A DNA stretch of 24,489 nt from positions 1 to 24,489 of the IMG/VR virus record IMGVR_UViG_3300021962_011954. The stretch is one strand, 5' to 3'. The stretch's first letter is position 1. Each line of letters starts with the position of its first letter. Origin of the DNA: a virus. Of the stretch, positions 6,591 to 24,489 are shown one piece after another. The notes below the pieces were generated by a model, which worked only from the letters and a program-made list of their open reading frames with translations, did not search any database and was not told where the DNA came from. The position numbers were made by a program, and so were the translations under genes.

Positions 6591-6684
6591 ACATGAAGAG
6601 TTTTTGTTTATAGTTTTATTAATTATGGTTGTTGTGATAGGGCCATTGATGTATCTGGCTTTTTGTAAAAAATTTTTGGATTAG
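6583..6684 (+). CDS. Putative single-pass membrane microprotein (33 aa)
   Basis: An ATG at 6583 overlaps the last codons of the methyltransferase gene (which stops at 6590) and opens a 33-residue frame. It consists of a short charged start (MTRHEEF), about 20 hydrophobic residues (from FLFIVLLIMVVVIGP onward) and a basic tail (CKKFLD). The pattern is that of a small membrane protein, for example a holin- or spanin-like accessory, but nothing specific supports lysis. No strong ribosome site is present; translation by coupling to the upstream gene would be required. Could be chance. Confidence 0.45.
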   Translation: MTRHEEFLFIVLLIMVVVIGPLMYLAFCKKFLD

Positions 6685-6731
6685 TAAAATTTTTTGATTA
6701 TAATTTGATATCAAAATTCGAGTTCCTCATT

Positions 6732-7205
6732 ATGAAAAAAATAAATATTCTTTATATTCCTGTATCTGGTGAAATAAAATTGATGGAAGCAGAGGACTCT
6801 TCACGCTTTAAAGAAAATGTGATAGGCGGTAATCCAGAATATCTTCGTTTTACCCCAGATGACAACATGTTGATGGTAGTGAATGAAGGCGCAAAATTAA
6901 GAAAAGAAGGTTTGAACATTCGAGCAAGCTGTATTGCGAATACTTGGTCACGACAAAATGTTTCGTGGTCAAGCAGTAAAACAATTTATGGTGATGCATT
7001 TATTGAAGGATGTCAACTTGGGATAAATAGCAAAACAATAGAAAGTTGTAGCGTACCCATAAAGGAACTTGAAGCCTTAATAGATTATTGCAATAAAGCT
7101 GAGTCATGGTGGGATTTTGCTCAAAAGAATATTGTTAACTCAACAATTTTTCAGTGGTTTACAGCAGCAACACAATATTTTGATGATGGTCAATTCAAGT
7201 TTTAG
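6732..7205 (+). CDS. DUF3846-like protein
   Basis: A TTG further upstream (6705) is in frame, but the ATG at 6732 is the natural start (157 aa). Residues 1-93 follow the DUF3846 pattern known from phages and plasmids: an N-terminal strand (INILYIPVSGEIKLME), a Gly-Gly step (VIGGNPEYLRF), 'MLMVVNEGAKL' and the family's closing motif 'IYGDAFIEG' (85-93). The remaining 60 residues are helical and Trp-rich. The function of DUF3846 is unknown. The ribosome site is weak. Confidence 0.6.
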   Translation: MKKINILYIPVSGEIKLMEAEDSSRFKENVIGGNPEYLRFTPDDNMLMVVNEGAKLRKEGLNIRASCIANTWSRQNVSWSSSKTIYGDAFIEGCQLGINSKTIESCSVPIKELEALIDYCNKAESWWDFAQKNIVNSTIFQWFTAATQYFDDGQFKF

Positions 7206-7691: not shown

Positions 7692-7708
7692 AATATATTA
7701 ATTGAAAT

Positions 7709-7768
7709 AACGAGCAGCAATCCTATATGGCGGGCCACATGGTGTGGGGGGTTGCTGCTCGTTTTTTT
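7709..7768 (+). terminator. Long-stem factor-independent terminator
   Basis: A perfect 12-bp stem AACGAGCAGCAA (7709-7720) / TTGCTGCTCGTT (7752-7763) is followed by seven T's (7762-7768). The 31-base loop carries its own small hairpin (CCACA-TGG-TGTGG). It ends the secreted-protein transcript. Confidence 0.9.
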
Positions 7769-7771
7769 GTA

Positions 7772-7816
7772 GCGAAAGAAAATTTTCACAAAGGATGAAT
7801 GTGTTTTTACGTATGG
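7772..7816 (+). promoter_or_regulatory. Promoter-like repeated element, copy 1
   Basis: GCGAAAGAAAATTTT (7772-7786) and, 27 bases from its start, ATGTGTTTTTACGTA (from 7799). A second copy with the same internal spacing occurs at 9796. Both directly follow a terminator and both lie 33-38 bases before the next ATG. This position suggests a phage-specific promoter or operator. Confidence 0.5.
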
Positions 7817-9458: not shown

Positions 9459-9519
9459 AATGATGGAAGTGGTGGTCACAGTGACTTGCCTATTTCATCA
9501 AAGCTTTATGGAGGATGTC

Positions 9520-9732
9520 ATGGCTAATAGCAAGCAAATCAGTATTAACGGTTCCACCGAAAACAAAAAGAGCACGGGCAACAGCATTTTGTTGCGCTTG
9601 TCTCCCCGCATGGCAGAAGAAGTGCGTAATACTGCCAAGCGTGAGGAGCGTACTATTACCACTGTTGTGACTCGTGCTCTCAAGCATTACATCAAATCTG
9701 AGTATCAGATCGAGATTCAGGATTCTGAGTGA
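9520..9732 (+). CDS. Ribbon-helix-helix DNA-binding protein
   Basis: ATGGAGGATGTC precedes the ATG at 9520, fixing a 70-aa product. Residues 22-28 (SILLRLS) form the DNA-contacting strand, 29-43 (PRMAEEVRNTAKREE) the first helix and 46-60 (ITTVVTRALKHYIKS) the second, a textbook Arc/MetJ/CopG layout; such proteins bind operators as dimers of dimers. The first 20 residues are a polar, disordered arm. It sits alone between a promoter-like site and a terminator, directly before the GHKL-MoxR-VWA unit, whose upstream region carries a repeated element that could be its target. Confidence 0.85.
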   Translation: MANSKQISINGSTENKKSTGNSILLRLSPRMAEEVRNTAKREERTITTVVTRALKHYIKSEYQIEIQDSE

Positions 9733-9756: not shown

Positions 9757-9790
9757 AGAGCCTCATGTGATCCATGAGGCTCTTTTTTTT
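9757..9790 (+). terminator. Factor-independent terminator
   Basis: An 11-bp perfect stem AGAGCCTCATG (9757-9767) / CATGAGGCTCT (9773-9783) with loop TGATC is followed by T's to 9790. It separates the RHH gene from the GHKL operon, which therefore needs its own promoter or read-through. Confidence 0.9.
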
Positions 9791-9795
9791 ATGTG

Positions 9796-9840
9796 GCGAA
9801 AAGAAAATTTATAGATTGTGCGATGTGCTTATCGTAATTC
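9796..9840 (+). promoter_or_regulatory. Promoter-like repeated element, copy 2
   Basis: GCGAAAAGAAAATTT (9796-9810) with ATGTGCTTATCGTAA beginning 27 bases after its start (9823). It matches copy 1 at 7772 in both blocks and in spacing. It lies just before the GHKL ATPase gene (ATG 9856) and directly after the terminator, the expected place for the operon promoter. Confidence 0.5.
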
Positions 9841-9855
9841 AATAAGGAGTTAAAA

Positions 9856-11322
9856 ATGCTGTATCTCAAGATTGAGAATCAAGGTGTTTGCCCTGTCGAA
9901 GGTTTTACAATATTTGGCGCTTCCAGTAAAAATGAGAACTTTCAAAGAGAAGATATCATCGGTACCTTTGGTTCCGGTGCGAAACACGGAGTTGCTCTGG
10001 CTCTTCGTCAGGGGGTCATGCCTGTAATTTATTGCAGCAACACCAAACTGGCTTTTTACACTAAACCCTTGGTTATTAAAGGTGTAAATGGAGAGACGCA
10101 GCACCAGAGGCTTTGCGTCAAGGTCTCGGGCAAAACAGATGAAGGCAAGTCTATTAATCAAGACCGTGAGCTTGATCATACGCTTTCATATGGCTGCAAG
10201 GATTGGCAAGAATTAGCATTGGCTATTAGAGAATTCATTTCCAACGCAATTGATGCTTGCTACGAGCAAAACTTGTCGCACGAAAATGTGACAGTAGAGT
10301 TGGTGGAAGAAAACCAAGTGCGTGCCAAGTCTGGGTTTACAAGAATTTTTGTTCCTGCTTCCATGGAAGTGCAGCGGTTCTACGCAGAAATAGACAAGTG
10401 GTTTTTGCATTTCAAGGAGTCAGAAAATCTCAAAAAAGATATTTTGCAAAAAAGACAAAGGAATGCAATAAGTCTTGATGGTGAAAAAACGAGTGCTGCT
10501 GTTATCTATCGTAGAGGCGTGCGTGTTCGTGAGTATAAGTCAAGCAGCTTGCCAAGTTTGTTCGATTACAACATCCCAAATCTTGAAATTGATGAATCAA
10601 GGACGATTGATGATTTTAAAGCACGATATGAATGCGGCCAAGCCTTGCAGAAAACCAAAGATATTGAAGTCATGACCAAGTTAATTCAAGCCTTATTTAA
10701 AAATGAGATGTGCTGGGAGCTCACTCAAGATGACTGGTCCTTGACCAGAAACATTTACCTTCTACCACAGGAAAACAAAGACATGTGGCGCAAGGTATTT
10801 CATACTGTTTGTGGAGAAAAAGCGGTTATTACAAGCAAACATTTTGCCAAAAAGATCGAAGAGAAAGGCTGCATACCTGTGGTATGCAGTGACTATCAAG
10901 AAGGTATCTATAAATTTTTGCGGGAATTAAATATCCCAAATGACACCGATGTATTAACGGTACACGATAAGAACGATAGGGTGATTGTCCCTTTGACAAA
11001 CGCTGTTGTCGAAACATTCAATTGCATCTGGCAGTCTCTTGAAGATATCAATATGTTGTTTGGGCGAGACAAGCCTGAGCTTTGCTGCTTCCGGCAAATG
11101 AACACCAGCGCCTCAGTCACTATGGGCTTGTGGCATGATAATAAAATTTATGTCAATGTCGATTATGCAGATTCGACTAGCAATGCTTTGTACGACATCG
11201 TTTTAGAGGAAATTGCTCATCATGTCACTCAAGCTACAGATGGATCTAGAGAATTCGCAAATTACCTTATTTCAATCACTCGTGAGATGGTGAAAAGAAA
11301 TAAAACCAGCCGTATCATGTAA
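9856..11322 (+). CDS. GHKL-like ATPase with apparently permuted motif order and degenerate zincin-like end
   Basis: The ATG has AAGGAG upstream (488 aa). The N-terminus carries ENQG (7-10), 'FGASSK' (20-25) and a Gly-rich loop IIGTFGSGAKHG (34-45), resembling the G1 and G2 boxes of GHKL ATPases. The N-box-like motif REFISNAIDA (125-134; E126, N130, D133) comes afterwards, the reverse of the usual order. Mid-protein segments (GFTRIFVPAS, VIYRRGVRVREY) are strand-rich. Near the C-terminus LEEIAHHVTQATDGSREF mimics an HExxH metallopeptidase helix with the first His replaced by Glu. The MoxR ATPase follows 40 bases later on the same strand. Likely an ATP-driven switch working with MoxR/VWA; the client is unknown. 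Confidence 0.7.
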   Translation: MLYLKIENQGVCPVEGFTIFGASSKNENFQREDIIGTFGSGAKHGVALALRQGVMPVIYCSNTKLAFYTKPLVIKGVNGETQHQRLCVKVSGKTDEGKSINQDRELDHTLSYGCKDWQELALAIREFISNAIDACYEQNLSHENVTVELVEENQVRAKSGFTRIFVPASMEVQRFYAEIDKWFLHFKESENLKKDILQKRQRNAISLDGEKTSAAVIYRRGVRVREYKSSSLPSLFDYNIPNLEIDESRTIDDFKARYECGQALQKTKDIEVMTKLIQALFKNEMCWELTQDDWSLTRNIYLLPQENKDMWRKVFHTVCGEKAVITSKHFAKKIEEKGCIPVVCSDYQEGIYKFLRELNIPNDTDVLTVHDKNDRVIVPLTNAVVETFNCIWQSLEDINMLFGRDKPELCCFRQMNTSASVTMGLWHDNKIYVNVDYADSTSNALYDIVLEEIAHHVTQATDGSREFANYLISITREMVKRNKTSRIM

Positions 11323-11362
11323 TTGAAGAATGTTTTTTTTACTTTAACAAAAGGAGAATATG

Positions 11363-12427
11363 ATGCCTCGTCCGAAGTCAGCAGAAGCTATTTACATCGA
11401 AAACAAACTTAAATCCAATCCTGATTTACGTTATTTCGATCTAATTCAGTTCGATGATTACAAATACAACATCGAACACAACTTTTTTAATACCGTGAAG
11501 TCACGGTATAAGAAAGCTGCGGTAGAATCGAGCATTGGAACTAAAGTTAATTCAACGGTTCCAGACTATGATTATCCTGAAGAAATTCAGAGGCTGATTC
11601 CAAGCCCTGATCCATTTTTTGTGCATACACAAGATAATGTGAGTCTTGTTGAAATGGTTCAAAACATGAGCCATGTTAACAATGTCAATATTCGTCTTGT
11701 CGGTCCAACTGGATGCGGCAAGACCAGCTTGGCTGTAGAATATGCTGCCAAGAATAATGTTCCAACCATCGTTATGGACTGTGCAAACGTGAGAGAGCCA
11801 AGAGATTGGTTTGGGTATCGCAAAATCGATCCGCTGAGCAAGCAGGTTGTCTGGCATGAATCTTTGTTTGTAAAAATGGTTGAAACTCCATTTGCCGTCA
11901 TTATTCTTGACGAGCTTAATCGTGTTTCCCCCATGGTCATTAATACTTTGATTCCACTGTTAGACCATAGAAGGACTACGTATCTTGAAGAGGCGCAGCG
12001 TCAGATTTCTTGCGCAGAAGGAGTCACCTTCTGGGCAAGTATCAACGAAGGCCATCAATACACAGGTACCATTCCTCTTGATGAGGCTATTGCCGATAGA
12101 TTTGGTTTGGTGGTCGAATGCAAGTTTTTGCCACCTGCTGAAGAAGCAGCTATGCTACATAAGAAGACAGGACTAGACGAAGCTAATTGTAACAAATTGG
12201 TAGAGATTGCCAATCAAGTTCGTCTGAAATCGCAAATAGATGCAGGAGATAGCTTTTCCAAGGCAATCAGTACTAGAATGCTGGAGAATGCCGCTAAGGC
12301 TTTCAAGGCTGGCGGTCCCAAGACCATGAAGTTCACCTTGGCCAATCATTTTAGTTCTGCTGGTGGAAGCTCAAGCGAAAGGCAAAATATCATTCAACTT
12401 CTAGTAGGTAAATTTGGGTCTATCTAA
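11363..12427 (+). CDS. MoxR/CobS-like AAA+ ATPase
   Basis: Two consecutive ATGs (11360, 11363) follow AGGAG; the second has better spacing and gives 354 aa. Walker A is GPTGCGKTS (114-122), Walker B VIILDE (179-184), the sensor 1 Asn is in 'WASINEGH' (N228) and an arginine-finger region is in DEAIADRF (R246). These mark a MoxR-branch AAA+ ATPase, usually a hexamer that works with a VWA-domain partner to remodel client proteins or load metal (CobS/CobT being one example). The N-terminal 60 residues are helical and basic and may bind DNA or the client. The VWA gene starts 10 bases after the stop. Confidence 0.9.
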   Translation: MPRPKSAEAIYIENKLKSNPDLRYFDLIQFDDYKYNIEHNFFNTVKSRYKKAAVESSIGTKVNSTVPDYDYPEEIQRLIPSPDPFFVHTQDNVSLVEMVQNMSHVNNVNIRLVGPTGCGKTSLAVEYAAKNNVPTIVMDCANVREPRDWFGYRKIDPLSKQVVWHESLFVKMVETPFAVIILDELNRVSPMVINTLIPLLDHRRTTYLEEAQRQISCAEGVTFWASINEGHQYTGTIPLDEAIADRFGLVVECKFLPPAEEAAMLHKKTGLDEANCNKLVEIANQVRLKSQIDAGDSFSKAISTRMLENAAKAFKAGGPKTMKFTLANHFSSAGGSSSERQNIIQLLVGKFGSI

Positions 12428-12437
12428 GGAGAAAACC

Positions 12438-14330
12438 ATGGCCAACAGAGATTATGATTCTTTTGAATATGAAGATGACGATGGATACTTTGTAGATAAA
12501 GACTACAGAACATCAAATTCTTGGTATACTGCTCCAATTAGATCCACCTCAGAGTACCTGAGAAACTCTTATTGGGGTGATTTTTATAACCAACGATATC
12601 AGGAAAGGCAGGATCGTGCCGATACCGAGGAAGCTTTGCATGAAGTTCTTCGTGAACTGAATAAAACAGTCAACCTGACATCGAACAGTTATGATGGCAA
12701 AGAAGCTATCATAACTGTAAAATACAGTAATGGTAAGGTTCATAATGATCTTCTTGGGAATGAGCTTTATGTTTCCCCATCGATTATTCTGAACGAAGAA
12801 CTGAGCATCGTTTCCAAAGATGGAGATTATTACGGCAAGCTTGATGGCTTGCATGGCCAAGCTTTGTTGTCATCTTTTATTAGGAAAAACATTGCTCCCA
12901 AAGCCGCACAGTCTTACAAGGATTCCGACAAGTGGGCTGTGCGTAATATTTTTATGACGGATCTTCAGTCCCTCGCAAGCAATGAGGTCTATAGCTCATG
13001 GCCCGGTTTTATGAGTTATGTTACTCAACAGCAAATTGTCTTTGGACAAGACAAAAAAAAGATACTTGAAAATATCCAGCACGCAGAAAAGCTTGGTATT
13101 ATCAAGTTTGATGATTTTGTTGAGTTGCTGGCATATAACCGTTTGGCAGCAGACAGAATTGATTATTCAATATTCAATAAAGATATGCAGCAAATTTTTA
13201 ACAAAGCTGATGCGATGTTTAATAATATGCTGAATGAAAAAACTCCTAACGAAAAAAGATTTGAGAAGGCTCAAGAGGTTTATGATAAGTTAGTTGAACT
13301 TCTTAATCCGGATAACGTGCAGTCCGAAAATGGATCTGCCGTTGCTGTGAATATGGAAAATTCAGAACTCTCTAGGCCTATGACTGGAGACAATAGCTAC
13401 AATAATCATTCGAATATTGAGGGAGACATTATTTCCGCAACCTTAGATCACAACACCAAGCTGCGAGAATATGACAAACATATCGATGACAGTTTAAACA
13501 GCAACATTTTAAGCAAGGAAACAATTCTTACAGATAGAACTTACAAGCTTGTAATTCCTGCTGTAAATCCAGAAACTGTACAAGAATATGAGAAACGCCG
13601 TGCTGCAAACAAAAAGATGATTCGTGATATTAAAACGGCATTTCAATTTAAGAATAATATTCCTGTTAATCAAACTTATGGTTTGAGTGCTGGCGAATTA
13701 GACGAAAATTCTCTCTACAAGATACACTTGGAGGAATATGAAAAACTTTACCAAAGAAGGGATATGTTCGAAGCAAAAAAATATCATGTGACGATTGCCT
13801 TAGATCAAAGTTCTTCTATGTGTGGTAGAATCCGTGAGGCTTCAAGACTTGGCATTATTATTGCCGAAGCCTTAAGGGAAATGCGGAATGTCGAGTTTTC
13901 GGTTTATGGGTTCAACACCCATATGATCAACACCATCGTCTACCAAGATAAGAATTATCAAAAGCTGGAAGCATTGTCCGAGGCAAATTCCAGCGGTTCA
14001 ACAGCACTGGGATATCATATTGCAGCTATTGCAGATAAGGTGCATACGCAGTATCATAACCATGATAAGAAAATAATGTTTGTGATTACGGATGGTGTTC
14101 CGACACATGGAAGTACTAATTTGACTGCAATAGAACATACGTCATATAGCGTCAAACTAATAAGGAACATGGGCATAGATGTTTTCGGCATTGGCATCAT
14201 GAATGCTTTTACTGAAAAAGTAGGCAACGATATTTTTGGCAAAGGAAATTATGCTGTAATACAGGGAATCAAGGAAACTTTGCCCATACTGGTAACCAAA
14301 TTGAAAAAGTATCTACAAAGAATGATTTAA
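12438..14330 (+). CDS. VWA-domain (CobT-like) partner of the MoxR ATPase
   Basis: AAGGAG precedes the ATG at 12438; the 630-aa product begins with a very acidic stretch (DSFEYEDDDGYFVDKDY). Residues 1-440 are mostly helical and of unknown fold. The C-terminal 185 residues are a von Willebrand A domain with a complete MIDAS: D456-x-S458-x-S460, T522 (SGSTALG) and D552 (VITDGVP), preceded by 'YHVTIAL'. MoxR-VWA pairs act as chaperones, with the VWA protein recognising the client through a bound metal. Gene order and 10-base spacing tie it to the MoxR ATPase. Confidence 0.88.
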   Translation: MANRDYDSFEYEDDDGYFVDKDYRTSNSWYTAPIRSTSEYLRNSYWGDFYNQRYQERQDRADTEEALHEVLRELNKTVNLTSNSYDGKEAIITVKYSNGKVHNDLLGNELYVSPSIILNEELSIVSKDGDYYGKLDGLHGQALLSSFIRKNIAPKAAQSYKDSDKWAVRNIFMTDLQSLASNEVYSSWPGFMSYVTQQQIVFGQDKKKILENIQHAEKLGIIKFDDFVELLAYNRLAADRIDYSIFNKDMQQIFNKADAMFNNMLNEKTPNEKRFEKAQEVYDKLVELLNPDNVQSENGSAVAVNMENSELSRPMTGDNSYNNHSNIEGDIISATLDHNTKLREYDKHIDDSLNSNILSKETILTDRTYKLVIPAVNPETVQEYEKRRAANKKMIRDIKTAFQFKNNIPVNQTYGLSAGELDENSLYKIHLEEYEKLYQRRDMFEAKKYHVTIALDQSSSMCGRIREASRLGIIIAEALREMRNVEFSVYGFNTHMINTIVYQDKNYQKLEALSEANSSGSTALGYHIAAIADKVHTQYHNHDKKIMFVITDGVPTHGSTNLTAIEHTSYSVKLIRNMGIDVFGIGIMNAFTEKVGNDIFGKGNYAVIQGIKETLPILVTKLKKYLQRMI

Positions 14331-14352: not shown

Positions 14353-15322
14353 CTATCCTGTAATCTAGCCAAGATTGGAAGCTATAGTTTTCAGAAGTGG
14401 CCCTCCAAGGTTTGTAAAGCAAACTTGTGGAGGGCTTTCCTCCGGATGCTTTTTGAGCTAAATACAATCTGGCATTCATTTCATAAGGGTCAATCTTTTT
14501 GCTACTCACATCTTCTTGAGGACATTTATTAGCTGGAACAAAACCTCGTAGTTCTGGATATTTTTGCATATCCTTATGACAAAGAACAGATAAAGCTGCA
14601 TTATAGATGTTAGATGTCGGAGTTGAACTATGCAAAACGCCTCTTAACTGTTTTAAATTTTCTACTGAAAAATCATAACCTCCGATTTTGTAAGAAGCAG
14701 CATATGCAGTAGCCGTTTTTCTTGGCATAGGCATTATATCCAATTCTTCTTCAGGGGATGCTGGTGGTGCTCCTGCTGCATCCACAAACAGTCTCGGCGC
14801 ACCTCCAAATGGAACTAAAATCCATTCTTTCATGGGGAATCGCCTGCCAAAATTACGATTGACATCTCTTATGAATTCTGGGTTGTTTATTAAATCTCTG
14901 AATCTAGGATGTGATTCGGGTTGCCATAAAGATATTACCAAATCTTTTTTATATTCGCCAAATCTACCAGCTATAGCTGAACCATATTTTATGGATTTTT
15001 TTCTTGATCCTAGCACTGTCCTAAATTCTTTGGGATCAATCTTCATTTCCTCAAGCTTGCGGTCAAGCCAAGGCTTGTCTGTATCTCTTGGAGTGTAGTT
15101 CAAAAAGTCTTCGATCTTGAAAGATGCTATGACTCCTAGTGCAGCTGGAAATACATCATAAAAAACTTCTTTTTTAAGTAGCAAATCATCATGTGTGTCA
15201 GGATATGGAGTGCCGTGATAAGCTTTATTGAAAAAAAATGTGATAGCAGGATTGATCTCATCATGCTCATTGTATATTTTGTCAGGATCTACATCTTTAA
15301 AAGCTTCTAAGTTGTACTGCAT
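14327..15322 (-). CDS. Unknown protein (331 aa)
   Basis: The ATG at 15322 has AGGTGA upstream. The product is soluble, mixed alpha/beta, with a proline- and acid-rich linker (about residues 188-198, APPASPEEELDI) and a strand-rich middle (EWILVPFGGAPRLFVDAAG). The last 20 residues (YSFQSWLDYRIEKESTSEF) resemble the SFxxW segments in the membrane paralogues and the methyltransferase N-terminus. No known family is recognised. It converges with the VWA gene by a 3-base overlap, and its promoter would lie in the 91-base divergent gap with the exonuclease gene. Confidence 0.75.
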   Translation of the reverse strand: MQYNLEAFKDVDPDKIYNEHDEINPAITFFFNKAYHGTPYPDTHDDLLLKKEVFYDVFPAALGVIASFKIEDFLNYTPRDTDKPWLDRKLEEMKIDPKEFRTVLGSRKKSIKYGSAIAGRFGEYKKDLVISLWQPESHPRFRDLINNPEFIRDVNRNFGRRFPMKEWILVPFGGAPRLFVDAAGAPPASPEEELDIMPMPRKTATAYAASYKIGGYDFSVENLKQLRGVLHSSTPTSNIYNAALSVLCHKDMQKYPELRGFVPANKCPQEDVSSKKIDPYEMNARLYLAQKASGGKPSTSLLYKPWRATSENYSFQSWLDYRIEKESTSEF

Positions 15323-16031: not shown

Positions 16032-17152
16032 GAAACACTAAAGCAAAATTCGTGTTCAATACAATGGTTTCAAATGAAAGCCATTGTATTGAACGCATGC
16101 TTAATTCTGTATATAAATATATAGATTATTGGGTCATTCAAGATAACGGTTCCACCGATGGAACCCAAGGTATAATCAATAATTTTTTTAAGGAAAAAGG
16201 CATACCCGGATTTCTATACGAAATTCCATGGTCGGGTTGCATGGGACAAAATAGAGACCACACAGTACAAACCTGCCTGAAAGCTGACCACAATTGTGAT
16301 TGGATTCTCCGAGTCGATGCTGATGAAATTCTTGAAATAGATCATGATTTTGATTGGTCGGTATTTGACAACACAGACATCCAAAGTTTTAATGTCTTTG
16401 CAAAACAATATGACACCAAATACTTCAGAACTTGGATCTGGAACACCAAACTACCTTGGAAGTTTAAGCACGATAAAAGGCATGAATGCATAGTATTAGA
16501 CAAAGACGGAATTGGAGAAGACTTTCAAAGAATTAATTTATCTGAGAAATTTAGACATGTAGTCTTGGGCGATGGCAAGACTTGGACTAACCCCCTTAAA
16601 TATTACATGGATGCATTAGAACTTGAAAAAGACCTAATAGCCAAAAATGAAATGAAAGATGATCACTATCATCTTTTCTATGTAGGCAAAAGCTACTCAG
16701 ACACTCTTCCAAGTCAACATTTGCCATTCGGAGATGAACATAATAAAGAATTGGCAAGAAGAGGGCTCTTCTATTTTGATCAATTTGTAAATACAAGACA
16801 CAATTTTCAAAATACTAAAACAGCTAAATTTGTAGATGAAATGGCATATGTTGCCAAATTATGCTCTGCGCATCTTCAAGCTGTGATGGGCAACACAGAA
16901 GAACAAATACAGTGTCTTAAAGATGCCGAATCCTTTTGCCCACAAAGAAACGAACATTTAAAAAGTTTGGCTGAAATATATCAAAGATTAAATATGTTTG
17001 CCCAAATGCACGAAGCCACATACAAAATGATGAATGTGGGAAGAAAAAATCCTTTTCCAAACCTCTGCATGATGATAGACAATAATTCCTATTACGATAC
17101 AAGCAACTACCCATCACATTTACACGAAATTGCCAGAAGTAATTTGACCTAA
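16028..17152 (+). CDS. Family 2-type glycosyltransferase with helical C-terminus
   Basis: The ATG overlaps the exonuclease stop in ATGA (16028-16031). The 374-aa product starts with the GT-A nucleotide-sugar fold: 'VFNTMVSNES' strand, IQDNGSTDGT (D39, D44), and the metal-binding DxD in LRVDADE (97-99). About 120 C-terminal residues are helical and TPR-like (EEQIQCLKDAESFCPQ..LKSLAEIYQRLN..MHEATYKM). Such enzymes transfer a sugar from a nucleotide donor; in phages targets include modified DNA bases, host surface glycans and virion proteins. The acceptor cannot be told. Confidence 0.85.
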   Translation: MRNTKAKFVFNTMVSNESHCIERMLNSVYKYIDYWVIQDNGSTDGTQGIINNFFKEKGIPGFLYEIPWSGCMGQNRDHTVQTCLKADHNCDWILRVDADEILEIDHDFDWSVFDNTDIQSFNVFAKQYDTKYFRTWIWNTKLPWKFKHDKRHECIVLDKDGIGEDFQRINLSEKFRHVVLGDGKTWTNPLKYYMDALELEKDLIAKNEMKDDHYHLFYVGKSYSDTLPSQHLPFGDEHNKELARRGLFYFDQFVNTRHNFQNTKTAKFVDEMAYVAKLCSAHLQAVMGNTEEQIQCLKDAESFCPQRNEHLKSLAEIYQRLNMFAQMHEATYKMMNVGRKNPFPNLCMMIDNNSYYDTSNYPSHLHEIARSNLT

Positions 17153-18855
17153 ATAGCAAACAACATTTTTTGTTGCGGCTCTTTACTCAGCTTGTCAAAA
17201 GAAATGTTTTGACATTGAATAGAATTGTTTTTAAGCCAACCCTCTCCCTCAACCACATCAAATCTGTCAAATTCATAAGTTCCATCAAGAACCAAATCAA
17301 GATACTTACCTGTATCTGTTCCAATGGTAATGAAAGTTATTTCTCTTCCACCAACAGTGTGATAACGCCCAGTCGCTATCAATCCTCTGAAACGCATGAA
17401 ATTACCAAACTTTTGAGAAAACATTCCCGGCATAAAACGATTGCTCGTCCAATAACCCCTATGAGCATGTTGGTTCCAACCATCATGAATGGAATCAACA
17501 TGGGAAGGATGCAACTCGTCTCCAATCAACTTCCAAGGCCCCCTGCCAAAAGCAGCAAATTTCAAGCCAGCTTTCTTGGCTTCCTGAACATGAACCCAAG
17601 GCCTATACAAACTCTGAGCATGGTTCAAAGCAGACCACCAGAATTTCTTCGGTTGACGAACCTTTTCATAAGCCAATGCCCACACTAATTTGGCATAGCT
17701 CATCGCATGAGCACGACAAAAACTATACAAAGAAAAATAACCTAATTCCTTCATTATTTTATTTCTATCTGGATTATCTTTTATTAGTTCCTTAAATTCA
17801 TCAATTCTGCCAGCGTCTTTCTTGCTAAAACCCTTTCGAAATGATTCGGCCTCAGACTCACTACAATTCAATATGCCTTGAATAAATCTTATGCCATCAT
17901 CGTCATACACCAAACACCCATCATAACTACCAGTCTTGTGGAACTGGTCCAATATCTTTATTTTGCGACCATCAGCTGAAGGCAGTGGTCGGATAAGCGC
18001 CAAAGAAAAAGCAACTTCAGAACGACAAGAAGGACGGATGTCAAGGTGCAGTCTTCTCTGAGCAGGACTTTCTGCAAAAGTCACACCCCAAGTATCACCA
18101 TTCTGAAAGATACTAGCAGTCTCAGAATCATATTCTGGATAATCATCTAGAGATCTGCTAGACAAATCATTCAGTTGCGCCAAACCACGATTACACAAAA
18201 GATCTATTTTAAAGTAACCACGGTCTTCTATTTCATCCTTGTTTAACTTTATCTGCGAATTACTAATTTTTAAATGTTCTGGAACCTTATCGGGGAATAT
18301 AACTATGCCCCCGCAATGCAATGAATAATTTTTAAAAGTACCCTCTAAAAGAGCAGCTTCTTCGGCTATCGCAGAAGCATTAGATCCAGTCAATTCAACC
18401 AAATTGAAATGCTTGGGTATGAATTTCCGGTTTCCACGATTTCTTAATGCCTGACGAATCGCAGAGTTTTTTTGATATTTGACATGATTGCTGATTCTGG
18501 CAACCCGCCCCGGATACTTCTGCATTACCTTTTCAAGGACAATGTCACGCTGATTGTAAGCGAAATCAACATCTATATCCGGGTTGTCTTTTCTGTTTTC
18601 ATGCATAAATCGAGATAAAATAAAATTGTTTTGAACAGGATCCATATCATGGATGCCCATCAAATAGGCAACCAAAGAGCATCCAGCTGAGCCACGAGTG
18701 ATGAAACGATATTCAGGAACTAAATCTAGTATTTCACGAGTTTGTAGAAAAACATTCGCAAAATTAAACTTTTCAATCAGCTGCAACTCTCTTGCAAGCC
18801 GATCTCGATAAACCTGTGAAGCAGGTAGAGTTCTTCTAAAATGTTTGCGTAACAT
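17149..18855 (-). CDS. dnaE: Compact DNA polymerase III alpha-like (C-family) polymerase without PHP domain
   Basis: The ATG at 18855 is chosen because GAAGG lies just before it and it follows the upstream stop by one base (TGAGATG); an in-frame TTG at 18873 is less likely. The 568-aa protein opens directly in the palm: TRGSAGCSLVAYLMG, then PDIDVDF (D95, D97) and KIDLL (D218), matching the three catalytic Asp of DnaE. Finger motifs (LIRPLPSADG, FRKGFSKKD, FCRAHAMSYAKLVWALAYEK) and a short OB-fold-like strand run (FRGLIATGRYHTV..) follow. There is no N-terminal PHP domain, no Exo domain and almost no tau-binding tail; bacterial DnaE has about 1,160 residues. Likely the phage replicative polymerase. 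Confidence 0.9.
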   Translation of the reverse strand: MLRKHFRRTLPASQVYRDRLARELQLIEKFNFANVFLQTREILDLVPEYRFITRGSAGCSLVAYLMGIHDMDPVQNNFILSRFMHENRKDNPDIDVDFAYNQRDIVLEKVMQKYPGRVARISNHVKYQKNSAIRQALRNRGNRKFIPKHFNLVELTGSNASAIAEEAALLEGTFKNYSLHCGGIVIFPDKVPEHLKISNSQIKLNKDEIEDRGYFKIDLLCNRGLAQLNDLSSRSLDDYPEYDSETASIFQNGDTWGVTFAESPAQRRLHLDIRPSCRSEVAFSLALIRPLPSADGRKIKILDQFHKTGSYDGCLVYDDDGIRFIQGILNCSESEAESFRKGFSKKDAGRIDEFKELIKDNPDRNKIMKELGYFSLYSFCRAHAMSYAKLVWALAYEKVRQPKKFWWSALNHAQSLYRPWVHVQEAKKAGLKFAAFGRGPWKLIGDELHPSHVDSIHDGWNQHAHRGYWTSNRFMPGMFSQKFGNFMRFRGLIATGRYHTVGGREITFITIGTDTGKYLDLVLDGTYEFDRFDVVEGEGWLKNNSIQCQNISFDKLSKEPQQKMLFAI

Positions 18856-18856
18856 C

Positions 18857-19096
18857 TCAACCTTCCGGGTCAATCTGCTTCATAGCCTTTTTAATTTCAG
18901 AAATGCCTTTTTTCAAATGGGATATTGCTTTTTCGATGTTGTCAGAACGCATGCTCATTTTTTCACAGATATCTTGTGTGATCTCAAGGTGCTCGACCAC
19001 CACATCCAACACATCGTGCGGAGTCACTTCGTCACATAGTTTTTCTATTATTGGTCGCCAATTCTGCGTCAAAGATCGATAATTTATGCCCCGCAT
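18857..19096 (-). CDS. Small helical protein upstream of the polymerase (79 aa)
   Basis: AAGGAGGAGACT precedes the ATG at 19096, a very strong ribosome site. The 79-residue product is helical throughout, with a likely coiled coil in the second half (EKAISHLKKGISEIKKAMKQ). It ends one base before the polymerase ATG, so translation is probably coupled and the product could be a polymerase accessory; no known family is recognised. Confidence 0.8.
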   Translation of the reverse strand: MRGINYRSLTQNWRPIIEKLCDEVTPHDVLDVVVEHLEITQDICEKMSMRSDNIEKAISHLKKGISEIKKAMKQIDPEG

Positions 19097-23326: not shown

Positions 23327-23527
23327 ATGCTTCGTAATTCGGTTTTATATGAGAGGGTACGGCAGTCCTGTGGGCTGAATGCAATTTGCATTTGGTCGAG
23401 TGATGACCGTTATGTTTCTGTTGGATTTGGGAGGTGTGAAAGTGGTTTGTTTTCAGGTAGCAAATCGGTAAGTTCTGGATTCAATTTGGCACATAAAGTG
23501 TGTTTTGGATTCGAGGGTAGAAAATGA
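23327..23527 (+). CDS. Small unknown ORF before the RNA ligase (66 aa)
   Basis: The ATG at 23327 follows GGAGATAAA, and the stop overlaps the next gene's ATG in ATGA (23524-23527), both good signs. The 66 residues are Ser/Gly/Cys-rich (VGFGRCESGLFSGSKSVSSGFN) with no known motif, so a real protein is uncertain; the region could be an untranslated leader or a small RNA. A 15-base palindrome (AATGCAATTTGCATT, 23378-23392) lies within it. If not a gene, 23175-23523 is a gap of about 350 bases holding the divergent promoters of the structural and ligase genes. Confidence 0.45.
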   Translation: MLRNSVLYERVRQSCGLNAICIWSSDDRYVSVGFGRCESGLFSGSKSVSSGFNLAHKVCFGFEGRK

Positions 23528-24489
23528 TCACTCTACAACAAGCATATGCGGCCTTGCAGGGCAGGAAAGAATTTGTTATTACAGAAACAGAAAAGACAAT
23601 ATCATTTGATTATATTATTGTAATGGATGATAGTTTCAATGATATGAAATATGGGTTTATTAGAAGAAACTTTAGGGGAATTACATTTGGTAAAAATGGA
23701 GAGCTTTTGAGTTTGCCGTTTCCAAAGTTTTTTAATATCAATCAAAATTCAGAGTCTCAATTTGTAGATCACAAGAATAAAAATGCTGTGGTTTATGAAA
23801 AAGCTGATGGGTCGATGATACATTGTTATTTATTGGATGGCAATATTGTATCATCCACCTGCAGGTCATCGACAAATATTCAGTCAAAAGACGCTTTAAA
23901 TTTTATAAATGCTGATATTTTGTTACAAAATCAGATTTTTGAATCTATAAATTTGGGTTTTACTCCAATTTTTGAATGGGTTGCACCGCACAATCAAGTG
24001 GTGGTTTGGTATGAAAGGCCAAGATTAGTCTATCTAATGAGCAGGAATAGAAAGACTGGCAATTATTTGTTTGAGGAAAAATATGCAGACAAAGTTAGAA
24101 AATTTGACATTAGATTTGGTGACATTTTAAATAGTGTATCTGGAGAAAATTTTGAGGGTTATGTTTGTCATTTGGAAGATGGAAATATTTTCAAAGTAAA
24201 GACTCCATGGTATTTGTTACGGCATAGAAGTGTAGATCTGTTGTCCAAACCGAAATACAAGATATATGAAGTTGCTTTGAATGGATATATTGACGATGTC
24301 ATATCTTTAGCTCCTATAACTCATGTAGAGTTGTATAAGAAGGTGCAGAGGGAAGTGGAGATTGATTTGCTATACTCTAAAATCGAATTAGAAAAGAAAT
24401 ACATGGAGGCTTTAAGACACAGTGGTGACATAAATGATAATGCACATAGGAAAAGGTTCGTTGAGTTGGTCAAGGGTGACGAGAATTTT
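23524..24489 (+). CDS. rnlA: T4 Rnl1-like RNA ligase (3' truncated)
   Basis: A frame begins MITLQQAYAALQGRKEF at an ATG overlapping the previous stop (ATGA) and stays open to the window end (322 residues; T4 Rnl1 has 374). Nucleotidyltransferase motifs appear in order: motif I YEKADGSM (nucleophile Lys93), motif III/IIIa around IFEWVAPHNQVVVWYE and LVYLMSRNRKTG, and motif IV EGYVCHLEDGNIFKVKTPWY with the K-x-K of motif V. Lys93 is close to T4 Rnl1 Lys99. This family seals single-stranded RNA breaks with ATP; in T4 it repairs host-cleaved tRNA. The C-terminal specificity domain is largely visible but its end is beyond the window. Confidence 0.9.
   Translation, partial: MITLQQAYAALQGRKEFVITETEKTISFDYIIVMDDSFNDMKYGFIRRNFRGITFGKNGELLSLPFPKFFNINQNSESQFVDHKNKNAVVYEKADGSMIHCYLLDGNIVSSTCRSSTNIQSKDALNFINADILLQNQIFESINLGFTPIFEWVAPHNQVVVWYERPRLVYLMSRNRKTGNYLFEEKYADKVRKFDIRFGDILNSVSGENFEGYVCHLEDGNIFKVKTPWYLLRHRSVDLLSKPKYKIYEVALNGYIDDVISLAPITHVELYKKVQREVEIDLLYSKIELEKKYMEALRHSGDINDNAHRKRFVELVKGDENF

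Follow-up and report, generated by a model that had tools for sequence, protein, structure and literature searches.

A probable circularly permuted GHKL-type ATPase encoded beside a MoxR-VWA pair in a viral genome fragment

Organization of the locus

We analysed a 24,489-base fragment of a virus record, which is referred to over its whole length as the window. It carries three long + strand open reading frames of 488, 355 and 630 amino acids, each with a ribosome-binding site, for a putative permuted GHKL-type ATPase with a C-terminal zincin-like domain (9856-11322), a MoxR-family AAA+ ATPase resembling CobS, NorQ and CbbQ (11360-12427) and a VWA protein resembling CobT and NorD (12438-14330). 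For the last of these, an ATG at 12438 with a ribosome-binding site upstream is favoured over a less likely TTG at 12414. An initial annotation had proposed these three genes with spacings of 40 and 10 bases; the genes and the second spacing are borne out, and the first gap, between the GHKL-like and MoxR genes, measures 37 bases.

An RHH (Arc-like) regulator gene lies upstream on the + strand (9460-9732; phrog_582, 7.4e-7), with a probable start at 9520 that has a ribosome-binding site. At its boundary with the triad sits a + strand intrinsic terminator (9757-9783) with an 11-pair stem, six G-C pairs and a U8 tail, and immediately 3' of it a weak promoter-like element (9796-9813, + strand). 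This element had been described as repeated; there is a single exact copy, at 9796, and a shorter relative near 7771, which likewise comes just after a hairpin and its T run, lends the repeat weak support. In both stretches (7705-7785 and 9757-9813) the hairpin and T run are followed directly by GCGAAA(A)GAAAATTT, and the two could be terminator-promoter pairs.

On the other side, a gene for a 331-residue protein of no recognised function (P331; 14327-15322, - strand) converges on the triad and is syntenic in a related phage, and a terminator-like hairpin is found past the triad end at 14428-14444. No strong + strand terminator was found at the two junctions within the triad. Gene order, spacing, ribosome-binding sites and the upstream terminator agree with the operon proposed earlier, which is likely. 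The RHH regulator was rejected as its head, because the strong terminator at 9757-9783 divides the RHH gene from the triad, and in the relative an intron-split tRNA gene occupies that interval. It is plausible that the triad forms a transcription unit of its own, without the RHH gene, starting after this terminator.

In L039, a locus of the related phage, the tRNA gene that separates RHH from GHKL is interrupted by a group I intron (~6660-6930; RF00028 in Rfam, 51.4 bits). Read by eye, the tRNA after splicing would carry the anticodon UUC (Glu); ARAGORN calls a tRNA-Ser at this place, overlapping the intron end. The intron and split tRNA are absent from the window.

The MoxR and VWA proteins

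The MoxR protein has the Walker A motif GPTGCGKT (residues 115-122), the Walker B motif VIILDE (180-185), a sensor 1 asparagine (N229) and a conserved arginine (R247), confirming its earlier assignment as a MoxR AAA+ ATPase. It matches Pfam AAA_5 (1.2e-16), CbbQ_C (8e-8) and phrog_249 (6.4e-35), and a profile built from it and its phage relatives matches chains of midasin, NorQ (1e-44), CbbQ and CobS. The VWA protein, as had been claimed, has a complete MIDAS (D456-x-S-x-S, T522 and D552). It matches Pfam VWA (5.8e-7) and phrog_5298 (1.1e-8), and its profile matches CobT (7e-20) and NorD. An AlphaFold2 model of the VWA protein from two sequences reached a pLDDT of 39.4. Scans with the two-sequence alignments of MoxR and VWA recovered the same single relative and nothing else, and PADLOC gave no defence-system match for the triad components, just weak AAA P-loop overlaps. 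As judged from these motifs and profiles, the pair belongs to the known CobS/CobT and NorQ/NorD kind of chaperone, in agreement with the initial annotation.

The same matches raise the possibility that the pair is a viral cobaltochelatase helper acting with a host CobN to raise cobalamin production. Tailed viruses, archaeal ones among them, have been suggested to do this (PMC8651126), and both the phrog_249 and phrog_5298 annotations and the CobS/CobT profile matches are in line with it. However, the MoxR profile scores higher with NorQ and CbbQ chains than with CobS, the proteins are 14-27% identical to named CobS/CobT-like proteins of phages, and no cobalamin gene was recognised within the 24-kb fragment; CobN could be supplied by the host. 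We regard this role as very improbable.

A permuted order of GHKL motifs

A fixed order of motifs is what normally identifies GHKL ATPases, among them Hsp90, MutL, gyrase, MORC, histidine kinases and RIIA. Canonical members have the N-box first, followed by G1 and G2, whereas the first triad protein has the order G1, G2, N-box. Its G1-like motif N8-x-G10 (9877-9885, + strand) keeps the asparagine in 59/73 and the glycine in 67/73 family members. The G2 motif G36xxG39xG41 (9961-9978, + strand) matches IGQFGVGF of Hsp90 and is present in 73/73, a count to which the search pattern itself contributed in part; that pattern did not select for the N-box or E-x-R. The N-box itself, R125-E126-xxx-N130-xx-D133 (10228-10254, + strand), lies 3' of G1 and G2 and matches that of Hsp90 and MORC, with E126, N130 and D133 in all 73 sequences. 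Further downstream, E247-x-R249 (10594-10602, + strand; 73/73) contains a candidate catalytic arginine, so that E126, N130, D133, G36, G39, G41, E247 and R249 are all invariant. Equating this arginine with the catalytic arginine of Hsp90 was rejected: its position resembles that of 'NVSRE', with a match that falls short of significance.

Because the protein begins seven residues ahead of G1, no N-box can precede that motif, and relatives start at the same point. The glutamate and asparagine of the N-box ExxxN are thus present together with GxxGxG and a mostly kept NxG, but in an order that marks a permuted variant rather than a canonical member. The earlier description of a GHKL-like ATPase was right in kind; it did not include the permuted motif order, and Pfam does not recognise the protein as GHKL. 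Pfam, NCBIfam and PADLOC gave no solid match for this protein (best Pfam HATPase_c_2, E 0.23), and in PHROGs it matches only phrog_8203, a family of no assigned function.

No viral relatives turned up in scans that used only the proteins of the window, and a viral scan with the first alignment of the GHKL-like family (A1) yielded 167, of which 80 were kept. A further 12 loci were identified in bacterial and archaeal MAG contigs, and no homologues were found in plasmids. The permuted GHKL proteins are a broad, widespread and apparently undescribed phage family; in the open-access literature we found no description of a permuted GHKL protein, nor of GHKL with MoxR as a phage system.

Profile and structural support for a probable permutation

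Canonical GHKL templates (Hsp90, MORC-like and MutL) were drawn from MAG genomes, and hhalign was run between them and family residues 1-255. Against the canonical GHKL profile, query residues 112-171 aligned with template positions 23-75 (score 36.7) and query residues 23-53 with template positions 114-148 (26.9), such that the two matches come in swapped order; the maximum for column-shuffled templates was 16.5, the best of 100, and hhalign E-values are single-pair values. The Hsp90-like profile gave 30.4 and 29.7 against 20.5 when shuffled, and the control profiles of MoxR and VWA scored 11.8 and 14.9. Independent weak matches are consistent with this: to a sacsin GHKL profile (28-68, against residues 4-39 in the homologue from Bordetella phage CN1), to MORC2 at the G2 stretch and to HATPase_c_2 at residues 114-152.

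AlphaFold2 modelled the protein from 45 sequences with a pLDDT of 92.6 and a pTM of 0.84. The model contains a strand at 2-9, a helix at 41-51, four strands, a helix at 120-137 and strands at 145-151 and 161-167, a predicted order of elements that is the Bergerat order rotated. Foldseek matches to GHKL structures were partial and sequential only (MORC2, probability 0.23; RIIA, 0.84), which is expected, if not proof, because a sequential method here meets a permutation. Together, the swapped hhalign matches above the shuffled controls, the conserved motif order and the AlphaFold2 model make a permuted GHKL ATPase the most likely identity, and we consider a circularly permuted GHKL fold very probable. 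The protein is probably also an active ATPase.

The C-terminal zincin-like domain

The C-terminal domain matches the minigluzincin abylysin (4jiu) in Foldseek with a probability of 1.00 and a TM-score of 0.55 over 83 columns. It shares its fold with the minigluzincins but differs from them in having EExxH in place of HExxH (residues 451-455; 11206-11220, + strand), within a longer motif reading EExxH...D..R; E451 is kept in 58/73, E452 in 55/73 and H455 in 55/73 family members. HExxH itself occurs in 0/73 GHKL-like sequences, which thus do not have the zinc site of zincin metallopeptidases. The 'protease-like end' proposed for this protein therefore holds for the fold and fails for the peptidase motif.

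An active metallopeptidase would make the triad a proteolytic remodelling machine. In addition to the abylysin-like fold, an N-terminal HExxH domain in the VWA proteins of five phage relatives (BS162P1, GMA6, Cantare, MT835482 and LR756508) speaks for this idea; but HExxH is absent, and read as lost, in the VWA proteins of the window and its relative as well as throughout the GHKL-like family. As the first zinc-ligand histidine of HExxH is a glutamate in that family, an ordinary peptidase is unlikely, and we consider a proteolytic triad very unlikely. It is possible, from the motif, that the domain is instead a binding or altered metal site. In the phage CobT-like VWA proteins of loci L008, L128, L129, L130 and L131, the N-terminal HExxH is of the type HELCHVLY/HEGCHVLY.

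Distribution of the triad

Four loci (L037, L038, L039 and L055) share the gene order P323-(RHH)-GHKL-MoxR-VWA-P331 and look like one phage type, with the same GHKL protein in several metagenomes. The relative is 60% identical to the window in the GHKL protein, 67% in MoxR and 51% in VWA. Among 83 distinct loci examined, MoxR-VWA adjoins the GHKL-like gene only in two lineages, that of the window and one relative, and at none of the others. Of 50 whole records, others too have AAA_5 or VWA matches, but these do not form an adjacent pair beside GHKL. Two huge phages encode GHKL and MoxR/VWA-type genes far apart in one genome, and L089 has an AAA_5 protein ~3 kb upstream of GHKL, without a VWA. 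An 'AAA-ATPase' near the GHKL gene of R26L was rejected as a MoxR protein, being BCS1-like.

Conversely, eight records of phages that encode a MoxR relative gave no GHKL match at all, and five phages (Gordonia GMA6, Brevibacterium Cantare, Bacteroides BS162P1, MT835482 and LR756508) have adjacent MoxR and VWA genes in records from which the GHKL-like gene is absent. The initial annotation had itself named MoxR-VWA without the GHKL-like gene in related genomes as counting against a three-part system, and these five phages show that arrangement. Since GHKL occurs without MoxR-VWA and MoxR-VWA without GHKL, the association is at most specific to two related lineages, and the triad is not a general system. 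The dedicated three-part remodelling machine of the initial annotation is correspondingly weak, retaining the adjacency in two lineages and lacking it at all the other GHKL loci among the 83.

Elsewhere, the GHKL gene has primase, polymerase, HNH or recombinase genes as neighbours. In L041 (4316-5227), L045, L047 and L049, a conserved 300-residue protein with a Toprim-like DHDPSG motif is encoded upstream of the permuted GHKL gene, at a distance of 0.3-1.6 kb; it looks TopoVIA-like, an identity left unsupported by Pfam, NCBIfam and PDB searches, which gave no match. In three planctomycete MAG loci (L133, L134 and L135), RuvB-like ATPase, short conserved and integrase-like genes lie upstream of the permuted GHKL gene.

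A possible client of the MoxR-VWA pair

The clients of MoxR-VWA pairs are often encoded next door, as for NorQD with NorCB, CbbQO with Rubisco and CobST with CobN. For this reason, if the pair in the window has a client or partner nearby, the GHKL protein is the best candidate, an assignment by analogy that we make tentatively and somewhat against the odds. Our main reading, to which we give a probability of roughly 0.5, is that the locus is one transcription unit joining a CobST/NorQD-like pair to a permuted GHKL ATPase, which may be the dedicated client of that pair.

In NorQ-NorD, the MoxR hexamer hydrolyses ATP, a finger of the VWA protein sits in the ring pore and the MIDAS grasps the client at an acidic patch (PMC9976466). 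By the same scheme, the MoxR AAA+ ring in the window would drive the VWA adaptor, which would grip its target via the MIDAS metal site. The permuted GHKL protein, with its predicted Hsp90/MORC-type ATP pocket, may bind and hydrolyse ATP as a clamp, and the pair may remodel it as a dedicated client or partner in this lineage. In its fullest form, a widespread natural GHKL permutation, joined to a zincin-like domain whose metal site is altered, would have been captured in one lineage as client or partner of the CobST-like motor, with the motor loading, opening or recycling the clamp; we regard this as unlikely, and if true, two ATPases would work with one adaptor as a single machine.

A joint unit is favoured by retention of the whole block in the relative despite 51-67% identity, but general synteny could explain this adjacency, P323, RHH and P331 being kept too. 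The principal competing explanation, which we place a little below an even chance, is that GHKL and the CobST-like pair serve the phage independently and share an operon by chance, GHKL acting alone on phage or host DNA-bound complexes in the manner of MORC or RIIA and MoxR-VWA serving in virion assembly. The occurrence of each without the other, the wide separation in the two huge phages and the replication- and recombination-type neighbours of GHKL all point this way, as does the virion-assembly role proposed for jumbo-phage MoxR-vWA pairs (PMC7824862). The tight spacing, the two junctions without a strong + strand terminator and the retention of the triad in both diverged lineages argue against it.

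Comparison with known systems

With CobS/CobT, NorQ/NorD and CbbQ/CbbO the window has in common the AAA+ motifs, the VWA MIDAS, adjacent genes and profile matches; its third gene, however, encodes a GHKL-like ATPase and not CobN, NorCB or Rubisco. Phage CobS/CobT-like MoxR-VWA pairs have already been described (PMC8651126, PMC7824862), including a jumbo-phage chaperone pair with a metallopeptidase-fused vWA (PMC7824862). As in the latter, MoxR and VWA are neighbours in a tailed phage, and the C-terminal VWA region of the window is homologous to that of phages with HExxH in their VWA proteins; the window and its relative have lost HExxH and gained the GHKL-like gene upstream. MoxR-vWA ternary conflict systems (PMC7159879, eLife 2020) likewise combine MoxR, VWA and a third protein, and the bpMoxR profile fell just under the cut-off; their third component is VMAP or similar, and the paper mentions neither GHKL nor HSP90 by name. 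The first triad protein shares with Hsp90, MORC, MutL, sacsin and T4 RIIA the N-box ExxxNxxD, GxxGxG, an invariant arginine and Hsp90/MORC-like profile matches, and differs in its G1-G2-N-box order and C-terminal minigluzincin-like domain. The MoxR-VWA pair is already known, the permuted GHKL protein is an apparently undescribed form of a familiar ATPase type, and a machine made of all three is a hypothesis.

If the family is permuted, this would account for common phage proteins (phrog_8203) having been left 'hypothetical', would offer for them the concrete hypothesis of an ATP-driven clamp, and would show that the ATP pocket tolerates rewiring. Adjacency to MoxR-VWA makes the GHKL protein a candidate client of a phage remodelling pair that is otherwise an orphan.

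Other genes in the window

The window also encodes a YiiX-type permuted papain-like enzyme (C92; 5348-6022, - strand) and a DNA polymerase III alpha protein (17149-18873, - strand) with NTPase and finger regions and without the N-terminal PHP part, whose gene is possibly split. A T4 RnlA-like RNA ligase gene (23524-24489) is ended by the window edge.
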